From a virus, in the IMG/VR virus record IMGVR_UViG_3300032286_000042, positions 1 through 22,479 of that record: a DNA stretch of 22,479 bases; one strand, given 5' to 3'. A model generated the notes under the pieces. The model did no database searches and was not told where the DNA came from. It saw nothing but the letters and a program-made list of their open reading frames with translations. Below, piece by piece: positions 769 to 18,300 of this stretch. Position 1 is the first letter of the stretch, and the number at the start of each line of letters is the position of its first letter. The position numbers and the translations under genes are program-made.

Positions 769-2978
769 TGGCTGCGAACGACGTAAAAGCCGCCGGTAAG
801 GTCTCCGAAGCTGACGACCACGACCGTCTGGCGACGATGCGTTCGCGGTTCACTATGGCTATTTCCGCATATTCGGACAGCCGCGAGGACGAGTTGGACG
901 ATCTGCGCTTCATGGCCGGATCGCCCGACAACCAGTGGCAGTGGCCCGCCGATGTGCTGGCCACCCGTGGCTCGGTGCAGGGCCAGACGATCAACGCGCG
1001 GCCGTGCCTGACGATCAATAAGCTGCCGCAGCACGTCCGGCAGGTGACGAACGAGCAGCGCCAGAATCGCCCGACCGGCAAGGTCATCCCGGCGGACGAC
1101 AAGGCCGACGTGGAGGTCGCCGAGATCTTCGACGGCATGGTGCGGCACATTGAGTACATCTCGGACGCCGACGTGGCCTACGACACGGCCTGCGACAACC
1201 AGGTCACCTACGGCGAGGGCTACATCCGCATTTTGACGGAGTACTGCCGCGAGGACAGCTTCGATCAGGATCTGAAGATTGGCCGCGTCCGCAACTCGTT
1301 CTCGGTCTACATGGACCCCACCATTCAAGACCCGTGCGGGTCTGACGCTGAGTGGTGCTTCCTGACGGAAGACATGACCAAGGACGAGTACGAACGTATG
1401 TTTCCGAATGCCTCGCCGGTCAGTTCCATGATGACGCAGGGCGTGGGCGACCAGTCGCTCGCGCAGTGGCTGAGCGAGGACACGGTCCGCATTGCGGAAT
1501 ATTTCTATTACGAGCACAAGTCGGCAAAGTTGAACCTGTATCCGGGTAACTTAACGGCCATTGACGGCTCGCCGCAGGACAAGCAGCTCAAGCTGATGTT
1601 CCAGAAGCCGCTGCGCACGCGCAACGTGGACCAGCGCAAGGTCAAGTGGCTCAAGACCAACGGTTTTGAGGTGTTGCAGGAGCAGGACTGGGCGGGCAAA
1701 TACATTCCGGTGATCCGCGTCGTCGGCAACGAATGGGAAGTGGACGGGCAGCTCTACGTGTCCGGTCTGGTGCGCAACGCCAAGGACGCGCAGCGCATGT
1801 ACAACTATTGGGTCAGCCAAGAAGCCGAGATGCTGGCGCTGGCACCCAAAGCACCCTTCATTGGTTACGGCGGCCAGTTTGAAGGTTACGAAAACCAATG
1901 GAAGACGGCCAACACGACCAACTGGCCCTACTTGGAGGTCAACCCGGATGTCACTGATGGCGCTGGGTCGGCTCTTCCGCTTCCGCAGCGCGCAGCGCCC
2001 CCGCTCGCACAGACTGGCCTCATACAGGCGAAAATGGGGGCTTCTGACGACATCAAGGCCACCACGGGTCAGTACGACAGTTCACTTGGCGCGACCAGCA
2101 ACGAGCGGTCTGGCAGGGCCATTTTGGCTCGTGAAAAACAGGGCGATACGGGTACGTATCACTACGTAGACAACCTGTCGCGCGCCATCCGGTACGTCAC
2201 GCGGCAGCTTGTGGACATGATCCCCAAGATCTACGACACGGAGCGGATTGCGCGCATCGTCGGCCTCGACGGCGAGGTCGGCATGGTGAAGATCAACCCG
2301 CAGCAGCCCGAAGCTGTCAAGCAGATCGTTGACCAGATGGGCGTCGTGATCGAAAAGGTCTACAATCCGTCCGTTGGCGTCTACGACGTGTGCGTCACGA
2401 CCGGGCCGGGCTACATGACCAAGCGCCAAGAGGCGCTGGACGCCATGTCAATGCTGCTCCAGTCGAACCCAGACCTCTGGAAGGTTGCGGGCGACCTGTT
2501 CATCAAGAACATGGACTGGCCTGGTGCGCAGGAGATGGCCAAGCGGTTCGCCAAGATCATCGACCCGAAGGTCATGGACGGCGAGGACCAGTCGCCGGAA
2601 ATGCAGATGGCCAAACAGCAGATTGAGGCCATGACGCAGCACATGCAGCAGATGGAAGGCATGTTGCAGCGCGTCCAGCAGTCGATGGAATCGCAGGAAC
2701 TGGACATCAAGAAGTTCGACTCGCAGGTAAAGGCGTACGATGCCGAAACCAAGCGCATTTCGGCTGTGCAGGCGTCCATGTCCACCGAACAAATCCAAGA
2801 TATCGTGATGGGAACCATCCACGCGGCTATCGACACGGGCGATTTGATCAGCAACATGCCCGACCGTGGGCAGCTTGAGCAGAACGAGTTTGGCGACGCG
2901 CCTGCAATGGCCCCACAGATGGGCGAGATGCCTATGGAACAGCCTCCGCAGCCTGACATGATGGGACAAGGCCAATGA
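768..2978 (+). CDS. P22-like portal protein
   Basis: Encodes 736 residues, close to the 725 residues of the P22 portal. The dodecameric portal forms the vertex through which DNA is packaged and ejected, and it is the docking site for TerL and the tail accessory factors. The N-terminal segment with NDQ-like helices (RFTMAISAYSDSREDELDD), the conserved ARPCLTINKLPQHVRQVTNEQ stretch near residues 77-97 and the later ATTGQYDSSLGATSNERSGR stretch near 427-446 are typical of the P22 portal family. Residues about 600-690 are Gln/Met-rich and predicted helical, matching the long coiled-coil barrel of P22-type portals; the tail (about 700-736) is Pro/Met/Gln-rich. AAGGG precedes the start, which overlaps the upstream stop. 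The next gene starts at ATGA over the stop. Confidence 0.95.
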   Translation: MAANDVKAAGKVSEADDHDRLATMRSRFTMAISAYSDSREDELDDLRFMAGSPDNQWQWPADVLATRGSVQGQTINARPCLTINKLPQHVRQVTNEQRQNRPTGKVIPADDKADVEVAEIFDGMVRHIEYISDADVAYDTACDNQVTYGEGYIRILTEYCREDSFDQDLKIGRVRNSFSVYMDPTIQDPCGSDAEWCFLTEDMTKDEYERMFPNASPVSSMMTQGVGDQSLAQWLSEDTVRIAEYFYYEHKSAKLNLYPGNLTAIDGSPQDKQLKLMFQKPLRTRNVDQRKVKWLKTNGFEVLQEQDWAGKYIPVIRVVGNEWEVDGQLYVSGLVRNAKDAQRMYNYWVSQEAEMLALAPKAPFIGYGGQFEGYENQWKTANTTNWPYLEVNPDVTDGAGSALPLPQRAAPPLAQTGLIQAKMGASDDIKATTGQYDSSLGATSNERSGRAILAREKQGDTGTYHYVDNLSRAIRYVTRQLVDMIPKIYDTERIARIVGLDGEVGMVKINPQQPEAVKQIVDQMGVVIEKVYNPSVGVYDVCVTTGPGYMTKRQEALDAMSMLLQSNPDLWKVAGDLFIKNMDWPGAQEMAKRFAKIIDPKVMDGEDQSPEMQMAKQQIEAMTQHMQQMEGMLQRVQQSMESQELDIKKFDSQVKAYDAETKRISAVQASMSTEQIQDIVMGTIHAAIDTGDLISNMPDRGQLEQNEFGDAPAMAPQMGEMPMEQPPQPDMMGQGQ

Positions 2979-3337
2979 AACCCGCTGACTTCATCGGTTG
3001 CATGTTTCTGGCGCGGGATGTGGCCCATTCCGTCCACCTGAACACGCGCAGCTATGCCAAACACATGGCCTTGAACGCCTTTTATGACGAGATTGTCGAT
3101 CTAGCCGACTCTTTTGCCGAAGCGTATCAAGGCCGCCACGGTCTGGTCGGCCCGATCACGTTGCATTCGGCTAAAAAGACCACTAATATCGTCGAGTTTT
3201 TGACGGAAAGCTTGGCCGAGATTGAAGAAGCTCGGTATAAGGTCTGCGACAAGGACGAGACGGCCATTCAGAACATCATCGACGAGATCGTCGGTCTGTA
3301 CCTGACGACCCTTTACAAACTTCGCTTCTTGGCGTGA
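2975..3337 (+). CDS. Helical phage protein of unknown function, DUF5856-like
   Basis: Encodes 120 residues that look entirely alpha-helical. The start ATG overlaps the portal stop (ATGA at 2975-2978), so it is coupled to the portal. The segment HLNTRSYAKHMALNAFYDEI followed by VDLADSFAEAYQGRHG (residues about 22-57) resembles a small phage family I associate with DUF5856, and loosely the H-x(4)-Y-x-xH-x-ALNxFY pattern of Dps/ferritin-like four-helix bundles. The assignment comes from memory of the pattern and was not searched. Histidines at 22 and 31 and acidic residues could form a metal site, but this is inference. Its place just after the portal is common for this family in podovirus-like genomes. 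Confidence 0.75.
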   Translation: MKPADFIGCMFLARDVAHSVHLNTRSYAKHMALNAFYDEIVDLADSFAEAYQGRHGLVGPITLHSAKKTTNIVEFLTESLAEIEEARYKVCDKDETAIQNIIDEIVGLYLTTLYKLRFLA

Positions 3338-3822: not shown

Positions 3823-5361
3823 ATGGCAGTCGATCTTAAAACCCTCACGCCCACCTCGCCGTTAGCAAAGACGGGATTCCTCTTTGGTGCGGAAAGTCAA
3901 GATGTGGGCACCACCAACCCGTCCGTCTACTCGACGCAAGCTGTCGCCAGAACGCTGCTGGGGTCCACGTCGCTGACGGGGGATGTGCTGACGGCTGACG
4001 CTCCGGTTTTGAACCTGACGCAGACTTGGAACAATGGCGCGGTTACGTTTACGGGCGTGAGGTTTAACGCTGCCGGAACGTCTAACGCAAATAGCTCGTC
4101 AACGTCGTTGCTCATAGACCTTCAGGTTAATGGAGTGAGTAAATTTAAGGTTGGTAAAGATAGTATTGTTTATAATGTTCTTCAAATGTACAAAGGCAAC
4201 ACACAAACCGGCGTTGCTATTAATCTGGAAGACGTTCCCGATGGCTTTACTGCCACCGGGGCTACGCTTAGAATATTTTCAGCAAAAGGTTCTCCTGATC
4301 CGGGTATTACGTTAAATTCGGCTTATGCCCTTGGCTGGAGCGCGTCAGACAATACAAGAAACGCGTACGACACCGTCCTTACTCGCAAGGCAGAACGCAA
4401 CCTCCGGCTTGGATTGGCAGACGCAGCCTCGGCCCTAGCTCAGACGCTCTCCGTTCAGTCTGTTGTGGCAAACACGACCAACGGCGCTGGCGCGGCCTTT
4501 ACGATCAATGGCTCGCAGGGCACTGGCTCGGGCGCTGGCGGCAGCATCATCTTCCAGACGGCTCCGGCTAATACGGGCGGCGGCGCTACAATCCAAAATG
4601 TGCTGGCTCCGGCGCTGACGATTGTGAGTGATAAGTCTGTCAGGTCTGGAAACGCCATTTTTCAAGATGGCTACCTTTCGTTGTTTGTTAATGTATCTGA
4701 TGCGCAATCTTTAAACTTTACCCAACGTTCAATTATTTTCTCTACAGGCATAAGTAACTCAGCTATTACGCTAAACGCAAACGGTGTAATTGGGTTCACA
4801 TCCGCCACGTCGGGTGATGTAGGCGTCATTATGGACACCATTTTACGCCGCGACGACGCCAACATCCTCGCCCAGCGCAACGGCGTCAACGCTCAGACCT
4901 TCCGCGTCTACAACACCTACACCGATGGGTCGAACTACGAGCGGTTGAGCTTTGCACAGGTTAGTTCCGAATGGCGCATTTCCAGCGAAGCAGCAGGGTC
5001 TGGAAGCGTAAGGTCGGTTGCCATTTATGCTGGCGCAACGCAATTGTTTCAGTTTGCGACGGGGTCTTCTTATTTTGGCTCAAACCTAAACGCAAACGTT
5101 GACAACACATATGATATCGGAGCCGCAAGCAACTACCGCCCGCGCTACATCCGGGCCGTGTCTGCAATCGTCACCGCGCCGCGAACTCTTGCCGCCGGTG
5201 CATCACAGATAGCTTCTGCGGCAACGGCTGGCGCTGGCGCACGCTCGTTTGTAACCGACGCTAGCATGAGCATGACGCTTGGCGTAGGCACCGTGGCCAC
5301 GGCTGGCGGTGCAAATGCTGTACCTGTATATAGTGACGGCACTAACTGGCTTATCGGCTAA
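3823..5361 (+). CDS. Tail-fibre-like / appendage protein
   Basis: Encodes 512 residues. The N-terminus (MAVDLKTLTPTSPLAKTGFL) may be the attachment domain. The body is a long Gly/Ser/Thr/Ala-rich beta region. Residues about 337-375 carry an ILRRDDANILAQRNGVNAQ block followed by FRVYNTYTDGSNYERLSF, a motif common in phage fibre and appendage proteins. Near 427, DNTYDIGAASNYRPRYIRA is another recurrent fibre motif. The protein ends in SDGTNWLIG. It probably forms a trimeric receptor-binding or head-fibre structure. The gene sits between portal and scaffold, unusual because P22 places its tailspike gene at the far end of the late region. Internal stretches are strikingly AT-rich (4141-4200 counts 16 G/C in 60), suggesting mosaic acquisition. 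An alternative is a head fibre rather than a tail fibre. Confidence 0.75.
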   Translation: MAVDLKTLTPTSPLAKTGFLFGAESQDVGTTNPSVYSTQAVARTLLGSTSLTGDVLTADAPVLNLTQTWNNGAVTFTGVRFNAAGTSNANSSSTSLLIDLQVNGVSKFKVGKDSIVYNVLQMYKGNTQTGVAINLEDVPDGFTATGATLRIFSAKGSPDPGITLNSAYALGWSASDNTRNAYDTVLTRKAERNLRLGLADAASALAQTLSVQSVVANTTNGAGAAFTINGSQGTGSGAGGSIIFQTAPANTGGGATIQNVLAPALTIVSDKSVRSGNAIFQDGYLSLFVNVSDAQSLNFTQRSIIFSTGISNSAITLNANGVIGFTSATSGDVGVIMDTILRRDDANILAQRNGVNAQTFRVYNTYTDGSNYERLSFAQVSSEWRISSEAAGSGSVRSVAIYAGATQLFQFATGSSYFGSNLNANVDNTYDIGAASNYRPRYIRAVSAIVTAPRTLAAGASQIASAATAGAGARSFVTDASMSMTLGVGTVATAGGANAVPVYSDGTNWLIG

Positions 5362-8754: not shown

Positions 8755-8967
8755 ATGCACATCTATCTGCGTCACCCGGACCACGGCACCAAGGTCGCCA
8801 CGATGGACCTTGAGGCGATTTATGATGAAGAGAACGGCTGGACGCGCTATACTCCCGGCGAACAGCCCGCCGCGCAGGCGAACGAACTGGTCACCAGACG
8901 ACGCGGGCGTCGTCCTTTGGTTGAGGAAGTAGCGGCAGATGGCAACGACAGCGGGCGATCAGATTAA
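8755..8967 (+). CDS. Small conserved phage protein before gp4-like gene
   Basis: Encodes 70 residues starting MHIYLRHPDHGTKVATMDLE. I chose ATG 8755 because AGGGAA (8745-8750) lies just upstream and because the preceding bases form a terminator. The N-terminal half has a short beta/alpha pattern with H-P-x-HG-x-KVA; the C-terminal half carries a basic run (TRRRGRRP, residues about 46-54) and an acidic end. Proteins with this N-terminus are common just upstream of gp4-like tail genes; their role is unknown. The gene overlaps the next by 29 bases. Confidence 0.75.
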   Translation: MHIYLRHPDHGTKVATMDLEAIYDEENGWTRYTPGEQPAAQANELVTRRRGRRPLVEEVAADGNDSGRSD

Positions 8968-9652
8968 TGGTGCGCTTCGGCTCCTCGGCGTTCTAGCTGA
9001 AGGTGAAACGCCGTCTGCGGCCACGTCGCAGGACGCGCTAACGGCGCTCAACCAGATGATTGACTCGTGGAACACCGAACGGCTTGCGGTGTTCTCCACG
9101 CAGGACCAAGTGTTTAGCTGGCTGCCGGGCAACATCTCGCGCACGCTCGGCCCGACCGGCAACTTCGTCGGCAACCGCCCGATCCTGCTGGACGACTCAA
9201 CCTATTTTCGCGATCCGGCCAGCGGCATCTCTTACGGCATCAAGATCATCAACCAGCAGCAGTATGACGGCATCGCCGTCAAGACTGTGACCAGCACCTA
9301 CCCGCAGGTGATCTGGCTTAACATGACCTACCCTGACATCGAGATGTACATCTACCCGGTGCCGACCAAGGTGTTGGAATGGCATTTCATTTCGGTTGAG
9401 GAGCTGACGCAGCCCGCCACAATCGCAACAACACTAGCCTTCCCGCCGGGCTACCTCCGCGCGTTCCGCTACAATCTGGCTTGCGAAATGGCCCCGGAGT
9501 TCGGCGTCGAACCAACACCCACGGTGTCGCGCATCGCGATGGCGTCCAAACGCAACCTGAAGCGCATCAATAATCCGGGCGACATCATGGCGCTGCCGTA
9601 CAGCATCGTTGGTACAAGACAGCGTTACAATATTTTCGCGAGCAACTACTAA
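8939..9652 (+). CDS. P22 gp4-like tail accessory factor / DNA stabilisation protein
   Basis: Encodes 237 residues (P22 gp4 has 166, so this is somewhat longer, with extra sequence in the middle). gp4-type proteins bind the portal after packaging, help seal the head and form the platform for the rest of the tail. The family signature is clear at the N-terminus: an INGALRLLGVLAEGETPSA helix, then ALTALNQMIDSWNTERLAVF. The middle region and C-terminus (PPGYLRAFRYNLACEMAPEF, then RIAMASKRNLKRIN) also match the family. Its place between the coat gene and a gp10-like gene is that of P22. It overlaps the upstream gene and its stop overlaps the next start (TAATG at 9650-9654). Confidence 0.9.
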   Translation: MATTAGDQINGALRLLGVLAEGETPSAATSQDALTALNQMIDSWNTERLAVFSTQDQVFSWLPGNISRTLGPTGNFVGNRPILLDDSTYFRDPASGISYGIKIINQQQYDGIAVKTVTSTYPQVIWLNMTYPDIEMYIYPVPTKVLEWHFISVEELTQPATIATTLAFPPGYLRAFRYNLACEMAPEFGVEPTPTVSRIAMASKRNLKRINNPGDIMALPYSIVGTRQRYNIFASNY

Positions 9653-11100
9653 TGCAGTCGCCCATCCTCGGCTCCGCATACGTAGCCCGCAGCGTCAACG
9701 CTGCGGATAACCGCATGATTAACATGTTTCCTGAAGTTGTGCCTGAAGGCGGCAAGCAGCCTGCGTTCCTTCAACGTGCGCCGGGGCTAAATTATCTTGC
9801 GACAATGGGCGCAGGCCCAATACGTGGGCTTTGGCAATTCGGCGACTACGGCTACGCCGTGTCGGGCACGTTGCTCTATAAAATCGACACCGATTTTAAC
9901 GTCGTATCTAAAGGCACCGTGGCGGGAACTGGCCCCGTGTCAATGGTTGATAACGGCACGCAATTGTTTATCGCGGCGGGCGCTACCGGCTACATCTACA
10001 ACGCAAACACGGACGTGTTTGCGCAGATCACGGATGTTGACTTTGCGGGCGCGGTAACGGTCGGGTTCCTTGACGGCTATTTCGTATATAATCAGCCCAA
10101 CAGCCAGAAATTCTGGGTCACGACGCTGTACGACGGCACGTCCGTAGACCCGCTTGATTTTGCCAGCGCCGAAGGCTCGCCTGATAATCTGGTATCACTA
10201 ATCGTGGACCACCGCGAAGTCTGGCTGTTCGGTCAAAATTCAACCGAAGTCTGGTACGACGCCGGTTTGCCGGATTTTCCGCTATCCCGCATTCAAGGCG
10301 CGTTTATTGAAATTGGCTGCGCTGCGCCATTTTCGGTTGCCAAACTCGACAACGGCGTGTTCTGGCTCAGTTCGGATGCGCGCGGGCGGGGCATGGTATA
10401 CCGATCCAACGGTTACGCTGGCGTCCGCATTTCAACGCATTCTGTTGAATGGCAAATCCAGCAATATACCGACATTTCAGACGCTGTGGCGTACACCTAC
10501 CAGCAAGACGGCCACGCCTTCTACGTGCTGAATTTTCCTTCCGCCGACATCACATGGGTTTATGATGTGGCTACGCAGGCTTGGCACCAGCGCGCTGGAT
10601 GGCTTAACAACGCGTATACCCGTCATCGGGGCAACTGCCAGATGGCGTTCAACGGCCAGATCGTAATCGGAGATTATCTGGGCGGTCAAATTTACGCTTA
10701 CGACCCTACGGTCTATACCGAAGCAGGGTCCGTCCAAAAATGGTTGCGTTCTTGGCGGGCGTTGCCTACCGGCACCAACAACTTGCGCCGCACAACGCAC
10801 CACACCTTGCAACTTGATTGCGAGTCAGGCGTGGGCCTAGACGGCTCGTCAGACACCGTTACCGTGCAAGGCAGCGACCCGCAGGTCATGTTGCGCTGGT
10901 CAGATGATGGCGGGCATACTTGGTCTAACGAGCATTGGCGGTCAATGGGTAAGCTGGGCCAAACAGGCCGCCGCGTCATATGGCGCAGGCTTGGCATGAC
11001 CATGAAACTTCGCGACCGCGTGTATGAGATTTCGGGGACAGACCCCGTTAAGATCACCATTATGGGCGCGGAAATTGTCGTGGACCCTACCAATGCCTGA
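9652..11100 (+). CDS. P22 gp10-like packaged DNA stabilisation protein (tail hub)
   Basis: Encodes 482 residues, close to P22 gp10 (472). gp10 forms a hexameric ring below gp4 and carries the tail needle and tailspikes. The N-terminus SPILGSAYVARSVNAADNRM followed by INMFPEVVPEGGKQPAFLQR is the strong family signature, with AFLQRAPGL near residue 38-46. The remainder is a beta-propeller-like series of short strands (GLWQFGDYGYAVSG, then LVSLIVDHREVWLFGQNSTE near 183-202), and RRVIWRRLGM near the C-terminus also fits. The start overlaps the upstream stop and the stop lies within the next gene. Confidence 0.92.
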   Translation: MQSPILGSAYVARSVNAADNRMINMFPEVVPEGGKQPAFLQRAPGLNYLATMGAGPIRGLWQFGDYGYAVSGTLLYKIDTDFNVVSKGTVAGTGPVSMVDNGTQLFIAAGATGYIYNANTDVFAQITDVDFAGAVTVGFLDGYFVYNQPNSQKFWVTTLYDGTSVDPLDFASAEGSPDNLVSLIVDHREVWLFGQNSTEVWYDAGLPDFPLSRIQGAFIEIGCAAPFSVAKLDNGVFWLSSDARGRGMVYRSNGYAGVRISTHSVEWQIQQYTDISDAVAYTYQQDGHAFYVLNFPSADITWVYDVATQAWHQRAGWLNNAYTRHRGNCQMAFNGQIVIGDYLGGQIYAYDPTVYTEAGSVQKWLRSWRALPTGTNNLRRTTHHTLQLDCESGVGLDGSSDTVTVQGSDPQVMLRWSDDGGHTWSNEHWRSMGKLGQTGRRVIWRRLGMTMKLRDRVYEISGTDPVKITIMGAEIVVDPTNA

Positions 11101-12584: not shown

Positions 12585-12869
12585 ATGCAGCTCAAGAATG
12601 GCACGTTCTGCCCCCTGATCAAAAAGGACTGCGTCCAGCTCCAGTGCGCTTGGTTCACGCAATTGCGCGGGACGCACCCTCAGACGGGTGCAGAGATTGA
12701 CGAGTGGATGTGCGCCATTTCGGCCATGCCCATGCTACAGATTGAGGTCGCCAAGGAAGCCCGCCAGGGTGCTGCGGCGACGGAGAGCTTTCGAAACGAG
12801 ATGGTACGGGTGCAGGGCGAATTTTTGCCTCCCGTGCAACAGGTGCAGATTACGGGGGGCACTTCGTGA
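12585..12869 (+). CDS. Conserved four-cysteine phage protein
   Basis: Encodes 94 residues starting MQLKNGTFCPLIKKDCVQLQ. It contains exactly four cysteines, C9, C16, C21 and C43 (C-x6-C-x4-C-x21-C), in the first half, the arrangement of a possible metal or Fe-S site; the second half is helical (KEARQGAAATESFRNEMVRV). I recognise this as a recurrent family in aquatic tailed phages, always of unknown function. It starts two bases after the preceding stop and is followed by the possible mini-gene and the 2OG oxygenase gene. A zinc-binding or electron-transfer role is inference only. Confidence 0.78.
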   Translation: MQLKNGTFCPLIKKDCVQLQCAWFTQLRGTHPQTGAEIDEWMCAISAMPMLQIEVAKEARQGAAATESFRNEMVRVQGEFLPPVQQVQITGGTS

Positions 12870-12934
12870 CAGACTACGAGCAGTTCCTGATTGTGCACGG
12901 TTTGACCGATAGTTTTGGAGCTTTTACCCTGTGA
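12866..12934 (+). CDS. Possible 22-residue mini-gene
   Basis: A GTG at 12866 overlaps the preceding stop (GTGA) and opens a 22-codon frame (MTDYEQFLIVHGLTDSFGAF and two more residues) that ends in TGA at 12932-12934, itself overlapping the GTG start of the next gene (GTGA at 12931-12934). It thus fills the only gap in this stretch with stop/start overlaps at both ends, the same arrangement used elsewhere in the window. A G-rich run (12854-12859) could serve as a ribosome site. It may be a translational-coupling leader rather than a functional protein. The short length makes chance occurrence quite possible. Confidence 0.35.
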   Translation: MTDYEQFLIVHGLTDSFGAFTL

Positions 12935-13464
12935 AGAACTTTCTTAAAATCGCTGAAGGCGTGGACGTTACCCCGGTCCTGCACGCGCTTATGGTCAATC
13001 CTGACCTGTGGGACGAGCACACGCTCCGCACGACGCACGCCGAGACGGCGCACGCCGCAGCCAGCGACATCTGGCTCATGTTTAACGACGTGTCAGGCGA
13101 AGTCGTTAACGACATCCAAGTGCAGCCATACCGCGCGTGGGACGTTCTCAAGCCGCTGCGGGCGCTCATTCTAGACCTGATCCACCGCGTCAACGGCGTG
13201 CAGCTTGGCCGTTGCATCGTCACGCGCCTGCCGCCGGGCGCGGTCATCACGCCGCATGTGGACTCCGGCGCGCCCGCGACGTTCTATACCCGTTACCAGA
13301 TCGCGCTCCAGAGCCTGCCCGGCGCGCTGTTCCATATCGAAGACGAAACGGTAAACTTTCGCTCCGGCGACATTTGGCTGATTAACAACAAGGCGGAACA
13401 TTCCGTGGTGAACAACAGCGCCGACGACCGGATCGTCTGCATCGTGGACATTCGGAGCGCATGA
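12931..13464 (+). CDS. 2-oxoglutarate/Fe(II)-dependent oxygenase, aspartyl/asparaginyl hydroxylase-like
   Basis: Encodes 177 residues from GTG 12931 (TGGAG ten bases upstream at 12916-12920). Fe(II)/2OG oxygenases use O2 and 2-oxoglutarate to hydroxylate a substrate. The facial triad is visible: H109-x-D111 in ITPHVDSG and distal H157 in NNKAEHSVVNNS, with R167 ten residues after the distal His as the expected 2-oxoglutarate carboxylate ligand. RLPPGAVITPHVDSG and the GDIWLINNKAEHSV block match the aspartyl/asparaginyl hydroxylase type. A beta strand RYQIALQSLPGALF lies between the metal ligands. All catalytic residues are present, so the gene looks functional. The substrate is unknown. It overlaps the GNAT gene by four bases, and the pair is probably a coupled accessory cassette. 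Confidence 0.85.
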   Translation: MKNFLKIAEGVDVTPVLHALMVNPDLWDEHTLRTTHAETAHAAASDIWLMFNDVSGEVVNDIQVQPYRAWDVLKPLRALILDLIHRVNGVQLGRCIVTRLPPGAVITPHVDSGAPATFYTRYQIALQSLPGALFHIEDETVNFRSGDIWLINNKAEHSVVNNSADDRIVCIVDIRSA

Positions 13465-13919
13465 TGTTGACCACCCAAGTTGAGCCATGGTCTGAGTTTG
13501 TTGTGGAGGTTCAGCCGCTTTTCCCACAGCATTGGGAGGAGCTGGCGCTCAACAAGGACAAAGTTCCGCTCGCGCCGCAGTATCACGTGTACGCCGCCCG
13601 TGAGGCCGCAGGCGAACTGATGGTGATAACCCTGCGTGACAAAGGGCGGCTAGTAGGCTATTTTGTCGGAATCGTCGCGCCCGGCTTGCATTACCGCACT
13701 TGTCTGACGCTGACAATGGACATCTTTTGGACTCACCCCGACATTCGGGGCGGGTTTGCGGGCGTAAAATTGTTTCGCGCGGTTGAAAAAGAAGCGAAAA
13801 GGCGAGGCGTGCAACGTATGTTCTACGGCTCCAAGCTTCACAAGGACTGCGGCAGTCTGTTCCGGTATCTGGGCTTGGAGCCCATCGAGACGTACTATTC
13901 CAAATGGATAGGGGCTTAA
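13461..13919 (+). CDS. GNAT-family N-acetyltransferase
   Basis: Encodes 152 residues, the usual length for a single GNAT domain. These enzymes move an acyl group from acyl-CoA to an amine. The segment HPDIRGGFAGVKLFRAVEKE followed by AKRRGVQRMF (residues about 92-121) matches motif A: a substrate strand TLTMDIFWTHPD, then the acetyl-CoA pyrophosphate-binding loop (RGGFAG in place of the canonical Q/R-x-x-G-x-G/A) and helix. The C-terminal GLEPIETYYSKWIG is typical of phage-encoded members, as is the N-terminal HWEELALNKDKVPLAPQY. Two adjacent ATGs (13461, 13464) are possible starts; the first overlaps the oxygenase stop. The substrate is unknown. Confidence 0.87.
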   Translation: MMLTTQVEPWSEFVVEVQPLFPQHWEELALNKDKVPLAPQYHVYAAREAAGELMVITLRDKGRLVGYFVGIVAPGLHYRTCLTLTMDIFWTHPDIRGGFAGVKLFRAVEKEAKRRGVQRMFYGSKLHKDCGSLFRYLGLEPIETYYSKWIGA

Positions 13920-13920
13920 A

Positions 13921-14691
13921 ATGGTCGCAGTCGCAATTGCCGGAGCCGCCGCTGTTGGTGCTGGCGCGTCCATCTACAGCTCAAGCAAAGCCGCTGACGC
14001 GCAGAAAGAGGGCATTGCTGCCTCGACCGCCGCGCAGCAGGCGGCGGCGGATAAGAGCATCGCCGCCCAACGCGAAATGTTTGACATTGGCCGCGCGGAC
14101 CTCGCGCCGTACCGTGAAGGCGGCGTCACAGCGCAAAATCAAATCTTGCAGCTATTGGGGATTGGCGGCAACACTTCAGCGGAAAATTACGGAAAATACG
14201 CTAAAGATTTCGGCATGTCGGACTTTACGGCAGATCCTGGCTATGGGTTCCGCTTTGACCAAGGCATGAAGGCGTTAAACGCCAGCGCCGCCGCGCGCGG
14301 TATGGGCATGTCTGGCGCGAACATTAAAGGCGCTACGGAATACGGTCAAAACATGGGCTCGCAAGAGTACCAGAACGCATTCAACCGCTATCAGACTAAC
14401 CGCACCAATCAACTTACTCCGTTGCAAGGCTTGTATACCGGCGGTCAGGCGGCCGCTGCCGGATCTGCGGCGCAAGCAGGCGCGCTGGGCCAGAATTTGG
14501 GTCAGACTTACACTAATCTGGGCCAAGGTCTGGCGCAGGGGGCTGCGGCAACGGGCAGCGCAAATGCCTCAGCGTACATGAACATGGGCAACTCGCTGAC
14601 AAACGCGTTGAGCGGCGGTTTGAACGCGTACATGGGGTATAACAACATGCAGGCGTACAACGCTCGCACTGCGGCAATGGCTAGGCAATGA
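13921..14691 (+). CDS. Internal virion / DNA ejection protein, gp7-like position
   Basis: Encodes 256 residues. The N-terminus VAVAIAGAAAVGAGASIYSS is a glycine-zipper-like hydrophobic segment (residues 2-21) suited to membrane insertion, followed by an Ala/Gln-rich helix (AQKEGIAASTAAQQAAADKS). A central motif FTADPGYGFRFDQGMKALNA followed by SAAARGMGMSG (residues about 101-131) recurs in phage DNA-transfer proteins. The C-terminal 110 residues are a Gly/Ala/Asn/Gln-rich low-complexity region. In P22 the equivalent slot holds gp7, gp20 and gp16, which are ejected with DNA and form a conduit across the envelope. One base separates it from the GNAT stop. Similarity to gp7 itself cannot be judged by eye, so the assignment rests on composition, motif and order. 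Confidence 0.75.
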   Translation: MVAVAIAGAAAVGAGASIYSSSKAADAQKEGIAASTAAQQAAADKSIAAQREMFDIGRADLAPYREGGVTAQNQILQLLGIGGNTSAENYGKYAKDFGMSDFTADPGYGFRFDQGMKALNASAAARGMGMSGANIKGATEYGQNMGSQEYQNAFNRYQTNRTNQLTPLQGLYTGGQAAAAGSAAQAGALGQNLGQTYTNLGQGLAQGAAATGSANASAYMNMGNSLTNALSGGLNAYMGYNNMQAYNARTAAMARQ

Positions 14692-14701
14692 GGGTCCGAT
14701 A

Positions 14702-16753
14702 ATGGTTGATTACAATATCGCGGTCCCGCAGCAGCAGCTTTTTCAAGCTCCTGACTTTACGCAGAACGCTATGCGTATGCAGCAAGCGCAGTTGCAGGAA
14801 ATGCAAATGCAGGAGCTTGCGCGCAAAAATGCCGCCGCCAGAAACACACAGCAGCTATATGCTGACCCCAATTTTGACCAATTTTCGCCGGAAGGAATTC
14901 GACGATTAGCCCAAACTGGTGGGTATGAGGCAGGAATTGCGGCGGCAAACGCCGCTCGGCAGATAGAAGATTTGCAGCGGCGAACAGCCCTTACTAACGC
15001 GGGGCTTGAAAAAACTCGTCTAGAGATAGGTGCTGCGCAATACGACATAGCACAAAATCGTTTGGCGGCTATTCCGCCAGGCGACGCAAAAGGTTACGCA
15101 GAATGGGACCGCGTGCATGGCCCCGCCTACAGAGCCAACGGCGTAAGTCTCCCCACGCCGGAGCAGTGGGCGCAAGACCCGACAGGTAGACTTCAAGGCC
15201 ATATGGTTTCTACGTCCCAGTCTGTCCGAGAGCGCGCGGCGAAGCGTGAAGAAGCCGGTCGATTTAGAGTGCAGATGACCGAAGCAGGTCCTATGGCGAC
15301 AAATGACTTAGGCCAGTTTAGGATGGCTACGGAACTTCGTGACGGCGCTCCGATGGGCGGCGGCGCAGGTGCTCCTGCGGTTGGTGGCGCTCCGATGGGT
15401 GGCGCTGGTGCTCCGGCGATGCCGGGGGCAGGCGCGGCTCCCGCTGGCTTTGACATGGACCGGGCTAAGCAGGCTATTGCGGGCATTGAGAGCGGCGGCA
15501 GGTACGGCGCTCTTGGGCCGGTCACGGATCGTGGCGACCGCGCATTCGGCAAGTACCAGGTCATGGGCGCGAACATCCCTTCGTGGACCAAGGAAGCCCT
15601 TGGCCGCAGCATGACGCCTGCTGAGTTCTTGGCTAGCCCAGAAGCTCAGGAGCGAGTGTTTGAGACGCAGTTTGGCAAGAGCGTCGCCAAATATGGCAAC
15701 CCAGTTGACGCCGCGTCTGTGTGGTTCTCCGGGCGTCCGCTTGCGAAGGCGGGCAACGCTTCGGACGTGCTGGGGACGACCGTCCCGCAGTACGCGCAGA
15801 AGTTTATGGCCGCATATGAAGGTGGCGCTAACGCGCCCGCCATGATGCGCGCGCCGGGGTTTGCGTCCAGCTCAGGCATTCCGGCCAACGTTGGCCTTCC
15901 GGTCGCGCCGGTAATGAACGCGCTCGCAGGCCCGCAGCCCCCGCAGCAGGGCAATGCTCTCGCCATGCAGGCTGCTCCGATGACGCAGTTGCAGGCTGCG
16001 CCAATGTTGCAGCAGCAGCCCGCGCCGGAAATTACCGCGCCGCAGCCCGCACCCGCGCCGACTACGTTTGAAGAAATGCAACGCACGGCCAACGCCCGTA
16101 ACCTAGAAAAACAACGCGCTATTGAAACCATGAAGGCGCAAGTTGCGGCGGAGGCACCGCCGCGCGCCATGACCGCGCAGCAAGAGCGCTTCATGCTCAA
16201 CACGGTATCTAAGGATCGTTTGTCGGCTGAAACCACTATCGGCACTATGGACGATGTGCTTAAGGCCGTGAAAGACGTGCAAGACCTTACACCCAAGCAG
16301 AAGGAAAGCGTAACCGGCATAACGGCAAAACTTCCGCCGGTTTTTGCCGATTCGCGAACGGCCCGCACCAAGCTTGACAATCTCAAGGGCGTGGTGACGC
16401 AGATGGGCAAGCGCGTTGCGTCGCTCGGCGGCGCAATCGGTAGCATGGCGGTTGCGGAATGGAAGATTGTGTCGGACGCCATCGCGTCGTTGGACACGAC
16501 CAATATGAACCCCAAAGACCTTAACGACCAGCTTGACATTATCGCCGCCAAAGCCAACGCGGCTGCGGCGCGCACCAAAGACGCTTACGAGCGGCAGTAC
16601 GAAGAGCTGAAAACTAAGCACGGAACCCGTTTTGATCTGAGCGGCGGCGCTGCGGCAACGACGGCGAAAGTGCCCGCGATTGGCGCGACCGATAGCGGGT
16701 ATCGTTTTAAGGGCGGCGATCCCGCGAAGGCTGACAGCTGGGAAAAAATCTAA
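14702..16753 (+). CDS. Ejection-type virion protein with internal lytic transglycosylase-like domain
   Basis: Encodes 683 residues. Residues 1-120 are Gln/Met/Ala-rich helical sequence. Residues about 215-242 are a Gly/Ala/Pro linker with a duplicated unit. Residues about 253-372 are a muralytic domain: AIAGIESGGRYGALGP with E263 as candidate catalytic acid, FGKYQVMGANIPSW, then MTPAEFLASPEAQERVFETQ and VDAASVWFSGRPLAKAG match the lysozyme-like transglycosylase domains of phage virions. Residues 376-470 are Pro/Ala/Gln-rich and flexible; the remaining C-terminus is helical with coiled-coil character. It likely travels in the head and locally opens peptidoglycan during DNA entry. Start ATG 14702 follows AGGG. 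Stop TAATG-overlaps the next gene. It could also be compared with gp20/gp16-like proteins, which in P22 also have roles in ejection. Confidence 0.85.
   Translation: MVDYNIAVPQQQLFQAPDFTQNAMRMQQAQLQEMQMQELARKNAAARNTQQLYADPNFDQFSPEGIRRLAQTGGYEAGIAAANAARQIEDLQRRTALTNAGLEKTRLEIGAAQYDIAQNRLAAIPPGDAKGYAEWDRVHGPAYRANGVSLPTPEQWAQDPTGRLQGHMVSTSQSVRERAAKREEAGRFRVQMTEAGPMATNDLGQFRMATELRDGAPMGGGAGAPAVGGAPMGGAGAPAMPGAGAAPAGFDMDRAKQAIAGIESGGRYGALGPVTDRGDRAFGKYQVMGANIPSWTKEALGRSMTPAEFLASPEAQERVFETQFGKSVAKYGNPVDAASVWFSGRPLAKAGNASDVLGTTVPQYAQKFMAAYEGGANAPAMMRAPGFASSSGIPANVGLPVAPVMNALAGPQPPQQGNALAMQAAPMTQLQAAPMLQQQPAPEITAPQPAPAPTTFEEMQRTANARNLEKQRAIETMKAQVAAEAPPRAMTAQQERFMLNTVSKDRLSAETTIGTMDDVLKAVKDVQDLTPKQKESVTGITAKLPPVFADSRTARTKLDNLKGVVTQMGKRVASLGGAIGSMAVAEWKIVSDAIASLDTTNMNPKDLNDQLDIIAAKANAAAARTKDAYERQYEELKTKHGTRFDLSGGAAATTAKVPAIGATDSGYRFKGGDPAKADSWEKI
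15344..15427 (+). repeat. 42-base imperfect direct duplication in ejection-protein linker
   Basis: Two adjacent 42-base units (15344-15385 and 15386-15427) both begin ggcgctccgatggg. They encode GAPMGGGAGAPAVG and GAPMGGAGAPAMPG, forming the flexible linker before the muralytic domain. The units differ by substitutions and a shifted glycine. Confidence 0.7.
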
Positions 16754-18300
16754 TGGCCGGACCTTGGGAGAAATACGCAGCCCCTAGCGCCGAAGAAGGC
16801 CCGTGGTCTAAATACGCGCCCGCTGCGGAAGCGCGCGCGCCAGCCGCGCCCGCTGCTGCGCAGCCACCAGCCATTGACGCGGTTCCGCAAGGCCGCAGCG
16901 GGCGGATGCGCGAGGCGTTTACGCGCCCGGCGGACACCAGCAACATCCCCGTGCAGACGCTGCCGGAGATGGGCGCACGGTACAAGGATATTGGTGTCGG
17001 CGCGGGGCAAGGCGCGCTGGCGGCTATCGCGGGGCTGCCTGGTGACGTAGCAAGTTTGGCGGTAAACAACCCGTTCACGTCGCAGAACCTCGCAAACGAA
17101 TGGTTTGGCGCGGCGAATAAAGACGTGGCGTCTGGCCGCATGTTGGGCGGCATAGCTACAGGTCTTGCCGCGCCGGGGCTAGGCGTGGCAAAAAACGCTT
17201 TGGCGGCAAGAAATTACCCGCTTGCGGCTAAGGGCGCAGGCGCGGCGCAGTTCGTGCTTGACCCCCTATCGCCAATGGTAGCGGGCGCAATCAATGCAGG
17301 CGCGCGCGGTGCAAAGGCTGTTGGCAACATCGGGCGCGCGGCTGAAGAGGCTACGCCAACGACGGCGGGGCTTCTTAATGAAGCCCGCGAAAGTTACCGC
17401 GTAATGGACGAGTCAAATTTGGCTATTAGCCCCAACGTGCTTCAGGCTACCGTTGGAGACATTAAGAAGTCGCTTGAGTCGTCGCGATACTTGGAAGAGC
17501 TTGACCCAATAGCCAAAAACTTTTTGAAAGTGCTGGACGAGCGGGCGCAGGCTCCGCAGTCGCTTACGCAATTGGACGCTTTGCGCGGCAAAGCCCGTGA
17601 TCTAGCGTCTGAAGCGACGGGGGGCGAGCGAAAAGTTTTGTCTTCCATTTCGCGCGCGTTGGACGAGACGCTTAACAACTTGGATGTGACTAAGGTTGTT
17701 CCAAAAGACGCCGCGCTTCCTTTTGCTGCGCCGGAAACTGTACGGGATGCGTTGACGACCGCGCGCGACAAATTTGGCCGCGCGGCCAAAAGCGCTGAAA
17801 TTGAAACGCTTATCCACAGGGCGGACGTATCCACGCAAGATAACCCGATTAAAGCTTTGCGAACAGAGTTTTCCGCGCTGGCGAAGAACGAGGACCGTTT
17901 GGCGCAATACTCAACGGCAGAGCAGAAAATTATTAAGGACATCGCGGCGGGCAACATCGGGTCTAGCACGCTTCAAGGTCTTGAGAACCTCATGCCAGGC
18001 TTCAGCCGAAGCAGCATGTTCGGTAACTTTATGGCCGCGACGGCGGGCGTTGTTGGGTCGTCCATTGGCGGCCCCGTTGGGTCTTTGGCGTTTAGCCTTC
18101 CCGGCGCGATAGGCAAATCGGCGGAAGCGGCGCGTGGCGCGCAGGCGGTGCCCTTCGCTAACCGATTTGCGGAAGGCATCCGCGCGGGCAATATCGGCAA
18201 CGCGATGGCTGAACCGTTCACGTCTACGGCCGCCGTGCGTAACTTCCTCCGCCCCGGCGTCGGCGCGTACAACGCATTCAGTCAACAATCTAACCAGTGA
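16753..18300 (+). CDS. Internal virion / ejection protein
   Basis: Encodes 515 residues. The N-terminus carries two copies of a GPW-x-KYA motif (residues 3-9 and 16-22), a short repeat I have seen at the N-terminus of phage internal virion proteins, followed by an Ala/Pro-rich linker to about residue 45. Hydrophobic glycine-rich stretches occur near residues 79-103 (IGVGAGQGALAAIAGLPGDV) and 422-450 (MFGNFMAATAGVVGSSIGGP), interspersed with long charged helices (residues 215-400). This mix of amphipathic helices and glycine-rich membrane-active segments is typical of proteins that are ejected and insert in the envelope. It lies last in the ejection series, the place of P22 gp16. No enzymatic motif is visible. 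TAATG overlaps the upstream stop. Confidence 0.75.
   Translation: MAGPWEKYAAPSAEEGPWSKYAPAAEARAPAAPAAAQPPAIDAVPQGRSGRMREAFTRPADTSNIPVQTLPEMGARYKDIGVGAGQGALAAIAGLPGDVASLAVNNPFTSQNLANEWFGAANKDVASGRMLGGIATGLAAPGLGVAKNALAARNYPLAAKGAGAAQFVLDPLSPMVAGAINAGARGAKAVGNIGRAAEEATPTTAGLLNEARESYRVMDESNLAISPNVLQATVGDIKKSLESSRYLEELDPIAKNFLKVLDERAQAPQSLTQLDALRGKARDLASEATGGERKVLSSISRALDETLNNLDVTKVVPKDAALPFAAPETVRDALTTARDKFGRAAKSAEIETLIHRADVSTQDNPIKALRTEFSALAKNEDRLAQYSTAEQKIIKDIAAGNIGSSTLQGLENLMPGFSRSSMFGNFMAATAGVVGSSIGGPVGSLAFSLPGAIGKSAEAARGAQAVPFANRFAEGIRAGNIGNAMAEPFTSTAAVRNFLRPGVGAYNAFSQQSNQ

Follow-up and report, generated by a model that had tools for sequence, protein, structure and literature searches.

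In bacteriophage T7, gene 13 immediately precedes the first internal core gene, a slot equivalent to that of the acetyltransferase-like gene studied here, and its product (PF11090) is annotated as 'probable scaffold protein'. Published T7-like phages carry an acetyltransferase between gp12 and gp14 (PMC10142737), and a DUF2833 'putative acetyltransferase' precedes internal virion protein B in T7-like phages (PMC7326022). Judging from the annotation of these relatives, T7 gp13 is probably a GNAT. T7 gp14 forms an outer-membrane pore (PMC8954989). In P22, gene 14 (L091:8911-9363) occupies the 26-14-7 slot. Its product is annotated as DUF2824 (PF11039), and as PHROG 651, head morphogenesis. The other enzyme considered here belongs to PF05118, whose characterised members act on free proline or on EGF-like domains, and which presumably also includes the lipid A hydroxylase LpxO.

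We analysed an unplaced viral fragment of 22.5 kb with a P22-like late module; this whole stretch of 22,479 nucleotides is referred to as the window. The order of the late module is portal, scaffold, major head protein, gp4-like, gp10-like and tail appendages, followed by the genes for a four-cysteine protein, a 2OG/Fe(II) oxygenase (OX) and a GNAT-fold protein (GNAT), three ejection-type genes, holin and endolysin (Table 1).

Table 1. Positions of the features discussed, in window coordinates, and the basis of each assignment
Feature	Position	Strand	Basis
gp4-like (Ad3) and gp10-like (Hc3) head-completion genes, marking the P22-like context	8939..11100	+	PHROG 637/12985 and 578
Four-cysteine protein, 94 aa	12585..12869	+	ORF; neighbour judged outside the set
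OX, AspH/proline-hydroxylase-family (PF05118) 2OG/Fe(II) oxygenase, 177 aa, GTG start	12931..13464	+	Pfam, invariant residues, PDB profile matches
GNAT-fold protein, 152 aa; positional counterpart of P22 gp14 and T7 gp13	13461..13919	+	PF00583, PHROG 1249, AlphaFold model
gp7-like first ejection protein, uncharged Ala/Gly/Val-rich N-terminus; proposed substrate	13921..14691	+	PHROG 598
Presumed ejection operon genes two and three (683 and 515 aa)	14702..18300	+	PHROG, gene order

An earlier sequence-only reading of this DNA had placed three genes in tight overlap between the tail and ejection genes. All three open reading frames are present, and the tight packing applies to two of the junctions: OX and GNAT overlap by 4 nt, and the ATG of the first ejection gene follows GNAT after a gap of 1 nt, but the gene for the four-cysteine protein is separated from OX by 61 nt. 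The product of the first ejection gene matches PHROG 598, 'DNA ejection', at 2e-26, and the 683-aa protein matches PHROG 24990 and 6654; a Pfam and PHROG search assigned the 515-aa protein to no family. The order of the ejection genes is that of P22 7-20-16. Elsewhere in the window, the interval between portal and scaffold holds a gene (2975-3337) that matches PHROG 858, 'starvation-inducible transcriptional regulator', and DUF5856, and the head module holds a 512-aa open reading frame (3823-5361) without a Pfam or PHROG match.

The four-cysteine protein, with cysteines at C9, C16, C21 and C43, has no match in Pfam or PHROG. Its homologues occur only in cyanophages and one roseophage, and the two homologue loci that were inspected, one in a cyanophage and one in a roseophage, lack OX and GNAT neighbours. 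The protein is likewise absent from all loci of OX/GNAT relatives that were searched for it. We therefore reject the suggestion that it belongs to the same set and regard it as a bystander. A gene of ~110 aa, conserved before OX in relatives, is also not core because it is variable among lineages.

OX matches PF05118 (aspartyl/asparaginyl beta-hydroxylase) at 2e-14 with 54 bits, above the curated threshold of 22.6. Its GTG start coincides with the residue at which close homologues begin. In an alignment of 19 homologues with 27-100% identity, H109, D111, H157 and R167 are invariant, in agreement with the earlier description of an intact active site, and OX conforms to the family's iron/2OG residue pattern, H-x-D/G ... 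H ... R. Profile comparison with the PDB retrieves L-proline cis-4-hydroxylase (4p7w, 1.9e-9), proline oxidase (1e5r, 3.6e-8) and AspH (5apa, 1.1e-5). The natural reading of the sequence is that OX would be an active 2OG/Fe(II) enzyme. Since 4p7w and 1e5r are its best solved relatives, OX and GNAT might be thought to modify a small metabolite, lipid A or a surface glycan. We consider this very unlikely: the annotated loci that carry the pair show no glycan or lipid gene beside it, and the gene order points to ejection proteins.

GNAT also scores above the curated Pfam threshold (PF00583, 1e-4, 22.9 bits; cutoff 20.7) and matches PHROG 1249 at 5e-11. The best viral structural match to its AlphaFold model (mean pLDDT 79) is the VpV262 acetyltransferase (E 1e-12), and the profile of the window family also matches acetyltransferases in the PDB. 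When 25 GNAT sequences are compared with the CoA-loop pattern R-x-x-G-x-G/A, in which the superfamily also admits Q at the first position, R96 is found in 25/25 and Gly or Ala at position 101 in 21/25, whereas Gly at position 99 is found in only 3/25, and the window protein has Phe there. The statement that GNAT keeps its CoA loop is thus correct for R96 and position 101 but not for position 99. Because the loop is only partly canonical, catalytic activity of GNAT is, as far as its sequence tells, likely but not certain.

The three genes had been taken as unrelated to canonical P22-type assembly, and for GNAT this cannot be maintained, since P22 gene 14 lies in the same slot and its product is predicted to have the same fold. 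We aligned members of the P22 and phiSG1 types and used the alignment to model P22 gp14 with AlphaFold (mean pLDDT 83). GNAT enzymes occur throughout the top list of its PDB matches (E ~5e-9, probability 1.00), and the model also matches phage RimL-like acetyltransferases and 'internal virion protein A' in BFVD. At the level of sequence, the window GNAT profile gave no significant sequence or profile alignment with P22 gp14 or T7 gp13, PF11039 does not match the window GNAT, and a PDB sequence search with the gp14 and gp13 profiles returned nothing useful. As direct profile homology is undetectable, the link between GNAT and P22 gp14 rests on position, size (152 and 151 aa) and fold. Because P22 gene 14 has the same place, the same size and a predicted GNAT fold, GNAT is most likely the counterpart of P22 gp14 and T7 gp13, and OX the added part. 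In other words, the slot is canonical, and the new parts are OX and the retained enzyme-like sequence of GNAT.

This relationship raises the possibility that GNAT, P22 gp14 and T7 gp13 all have the GNAT fold without catalytic activity and serve as chaperones or scaffolds that assemble ejection proteins, and that OX is a separate enzyme incidentally carried along. The head-morphogenesis and scaffold annotations of the two counterparts fit such a role, as do the lack of the first glycine of the canonical CoA loop in GNAT and the divergence of P22 gp14, in which Pfam sees DUF2824 and nothing else. However, members of the window family are still recognised by profiles of active GNAT families (PF00583 and the PDB acetyltransferases) and have kept R96, the glycine at loop position 101 and further invariant polar residues. 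That GNAT is so closely paired with an intact oxygenase also suggests an enzymatic role. We regard a purely structural GNAT as unlikely.

The pairing was surveyed across phages. A scan of IMG/VR with GNAT as the query gave 70 loci, all from close relatives (57-99%), and OX lies directly upstream of GNAT in all but one of them (L075). As these loci are so closely related, the scans were repeated with OX as the query, and GNAT is adjacent in 65/70 and 43/52 loci, down to ~30% OX identity. In the non-redundant set, 102 of 105 OX/GNAT pairs are directly adjacent (101 by rule, and L006, which has a start-codon artefact), and the remaining 3 lie within 210 nt. Within the late structural module, OX and GNAT thus form a conserved set, as had been proposed for them, rather than independent genes at random positions. 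Co-divergence of OX with GNAT beyond their shared phage history was not found (r 0.57, vs 0.58 with a tail gene).

P22-like modules hold 88 of the distinct pairs (L274, though P22-like, is tallied apart), and the ejection gene comes directly next in 78 of them, most exceptions being contig ends. In a second architecture, represented by Limnohabitans phage DC33, the order is terminase, OX, GNAT, small protein and portal, and the small protein after the pair has an Ala-rich, uncharged N-terminus. Further carriers of the pair are the cultured phage PfAn1, an environmental phage of Pseudomonas fluorescens, and assembly contigs of Sphingobium, Sphingopyxis, Sphingomonas and Hyphomicrobiales. In one contig each of Hyphomicrobiales (L409) and Sphingomonas (L413), OX and GNAT are still together although the ejection gene lies upstream of them or is divergent from them. 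Plasmid p1 of Caenibius sp. WL (L407, 38 kb) combines packaging and head genes of P22-like type with OX, GNAT and the ejection gene, and looks like a phage-plasmid.

The loci in which the two enzymes are separated are informative. OX without GNAT lies before an ejection gene in L415, and in MW202665 directly before a different DNA-ejection family (PHROG 21132, 1e-48). GNAT without OX lies before the ejection gene in L075 and, in Zobellviridae, before a small gene that is itself followed by a giant virion-type gene. Since each enzyme alone is found before ejection-type genes, the common partner of both is the first ejection-type gene. There are a few exceptions (L312, L317 and L321), in which OX is beside terminase-like genes and adjoins neither GNAT nor an ejection gene. 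On a plasmid of Massilia violaceinigra (L408:6001-9295), the genes after OX encode a cupin, an Ala-rich protein of 192 aa, a protein of 567 aa and a very large PLxRFG protein; this is possibly a third architecture that ties OX to injected proteins.

The proteins encoded downstream of GNAT share an unusual N-terminus. They begin with Met and a small residue (the second residue is small in 32/33), followed by an uncharged stretch rich in Ala, Gly and Val. Positions 2-19 hold no charged residue in 27 of 33 non-redundant post-GNAT genes, whereas the same holds for 9 of the 207 coupled genes used as controls (Fisher p 2e-22), a statistic in which one lineage is partly counted often because the P22-like downstream ejection genes are mutually homologous. 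The small downstream proteins of the Zobellviridae and terminase-portal loci belong to PHROGs other than those of the P22-like ejection genes, and T7 gp14 is one of the 9 controls with uncharged positions 2-19. The uncharged N-terminus is absent in P22 gp7 and phiSG1 gp7, and according to the P22 database record gp7 loses its first 20 residues. Therefore, N-terminal acetylation cannot hold as a general rule.

In many short-tailed phages, OX and GNAT occur together just ahead of the gene whose product is injected first, so they probably modify the injection machinery or help to assemble it. Our tentative reading, which we hold at slightly less than an even chance, is that this two-gene cassette of the late module provides late-expressed modification or maturation factors for the ejection proteins of short-tailed phages, most likely for the first of them. 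Both enzymes would most likely target the protein that the next gene encodes, which is gp7/T7-gp14-like and would be the first to leave the virion and insert into the host envelope; alternatively, the target may be the ejection complex, before or during packaging. GNAT may acetylate the ejection protein, perhaps at the N-terminal amine bared by removal of Met before Val, Ala or Gly, an attractive option where an uncharged segment follows. OX, an additional hydroxylase recruited to the same task, may hydroxylate one of its side chains. These modifications could make the ejection protein ready to be packaged into the head or to insert into the membrane.

A virion protein, a host ribosomal protein and a cell-surface molecule had all been put forward as targets by the sequence-only reading. 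The gene order favours the first, as an ejection protein, while not being proof of a substrate, and makes the ribosome and cell surface less favoured. A host target can be argued from gp28 (Rac) of phage LUZ19, a phage GNAT that acts on host RNA polymerase and whose expression causes cleavage of the alpha subunit (PMC7552054). By analogy, OX and GNAT would reprogram the infected cell by modifying host proteins such as RNA polymerase or the ribosome, and published work on marine phages mostly treats their GNATs as host-metabolism genes (PMC6918029, PMC10149686). The gene for Rac is likewise located before those of a small virion protein and the portal. However, the OX-GNAT pair belongs to the late structural module rather than to the early genes and keeps its fixed place beside ejection-type genes across several architectures, and the profile of the window family gives no match to Rac at E 10, so that we rejected Rac as a homologue. 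Reprogramming of the host by OX and GNAT seems quite unlikely to us, and the placement of such phage acetyltransferases argues for a role in the virion, in contrast to the published host-metabolism label. In LUZ19 itself (L416:4535-5249), the genes for Rac and the small virion protein gp29 overlap and lie before the portal, as in the layout of the terminase-portal GNATs, which belong to another family.

Modification of the ejection proteins as we propose it would bring in hydroxylation and acetylation as possible stages in the construction of the phage DNA-injection machine. A wider proposal, possible but rather unlikely, is a dedicated post-translational modification system for the ejection proteins of short-tailed phages. 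Its GNAT would be common to P22 (gp14), T7 (gp13) and many marine and freshwater phages, a 2OG hydroxylase would have been added in one large group, and the system would be needed for the packaging or the envelope pore of the first injected protein.

Like L-proline cis-4-hydroxylase, proline 3-hydroxylase and AspH of PF05118, OX has the HxD...H...R motif and a matching profile, in a protein of 177 aa. Rac resembles the window GNAT as a phage GNAT in a similar place but lies outside its sequence family and acts on a host enzyme. The GNAT of the VpV262 type (PHROG 1249) is a sequence homologue of the window GNAT at 31% as well as its best structural match, and directly precedes a small gene, itself before a giant virion-type gene; unlike the window GNAT, it stands without OX. 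P22 gp14 shares with the window GNAT the slot between the tail-completion genes and gene 7, the size and the predicted fold, but the P22 late module has no OX. The T7 gp13 module also lacks OX, and no relation in sequence between T7 gp13 and the window GNAT could be detected. Through this comparison, P22 gene 14 and T7 gene 13, two long-standing unknowns, gain a shared and testable identity as putative GNAT-fold partners of the first ejection protein.
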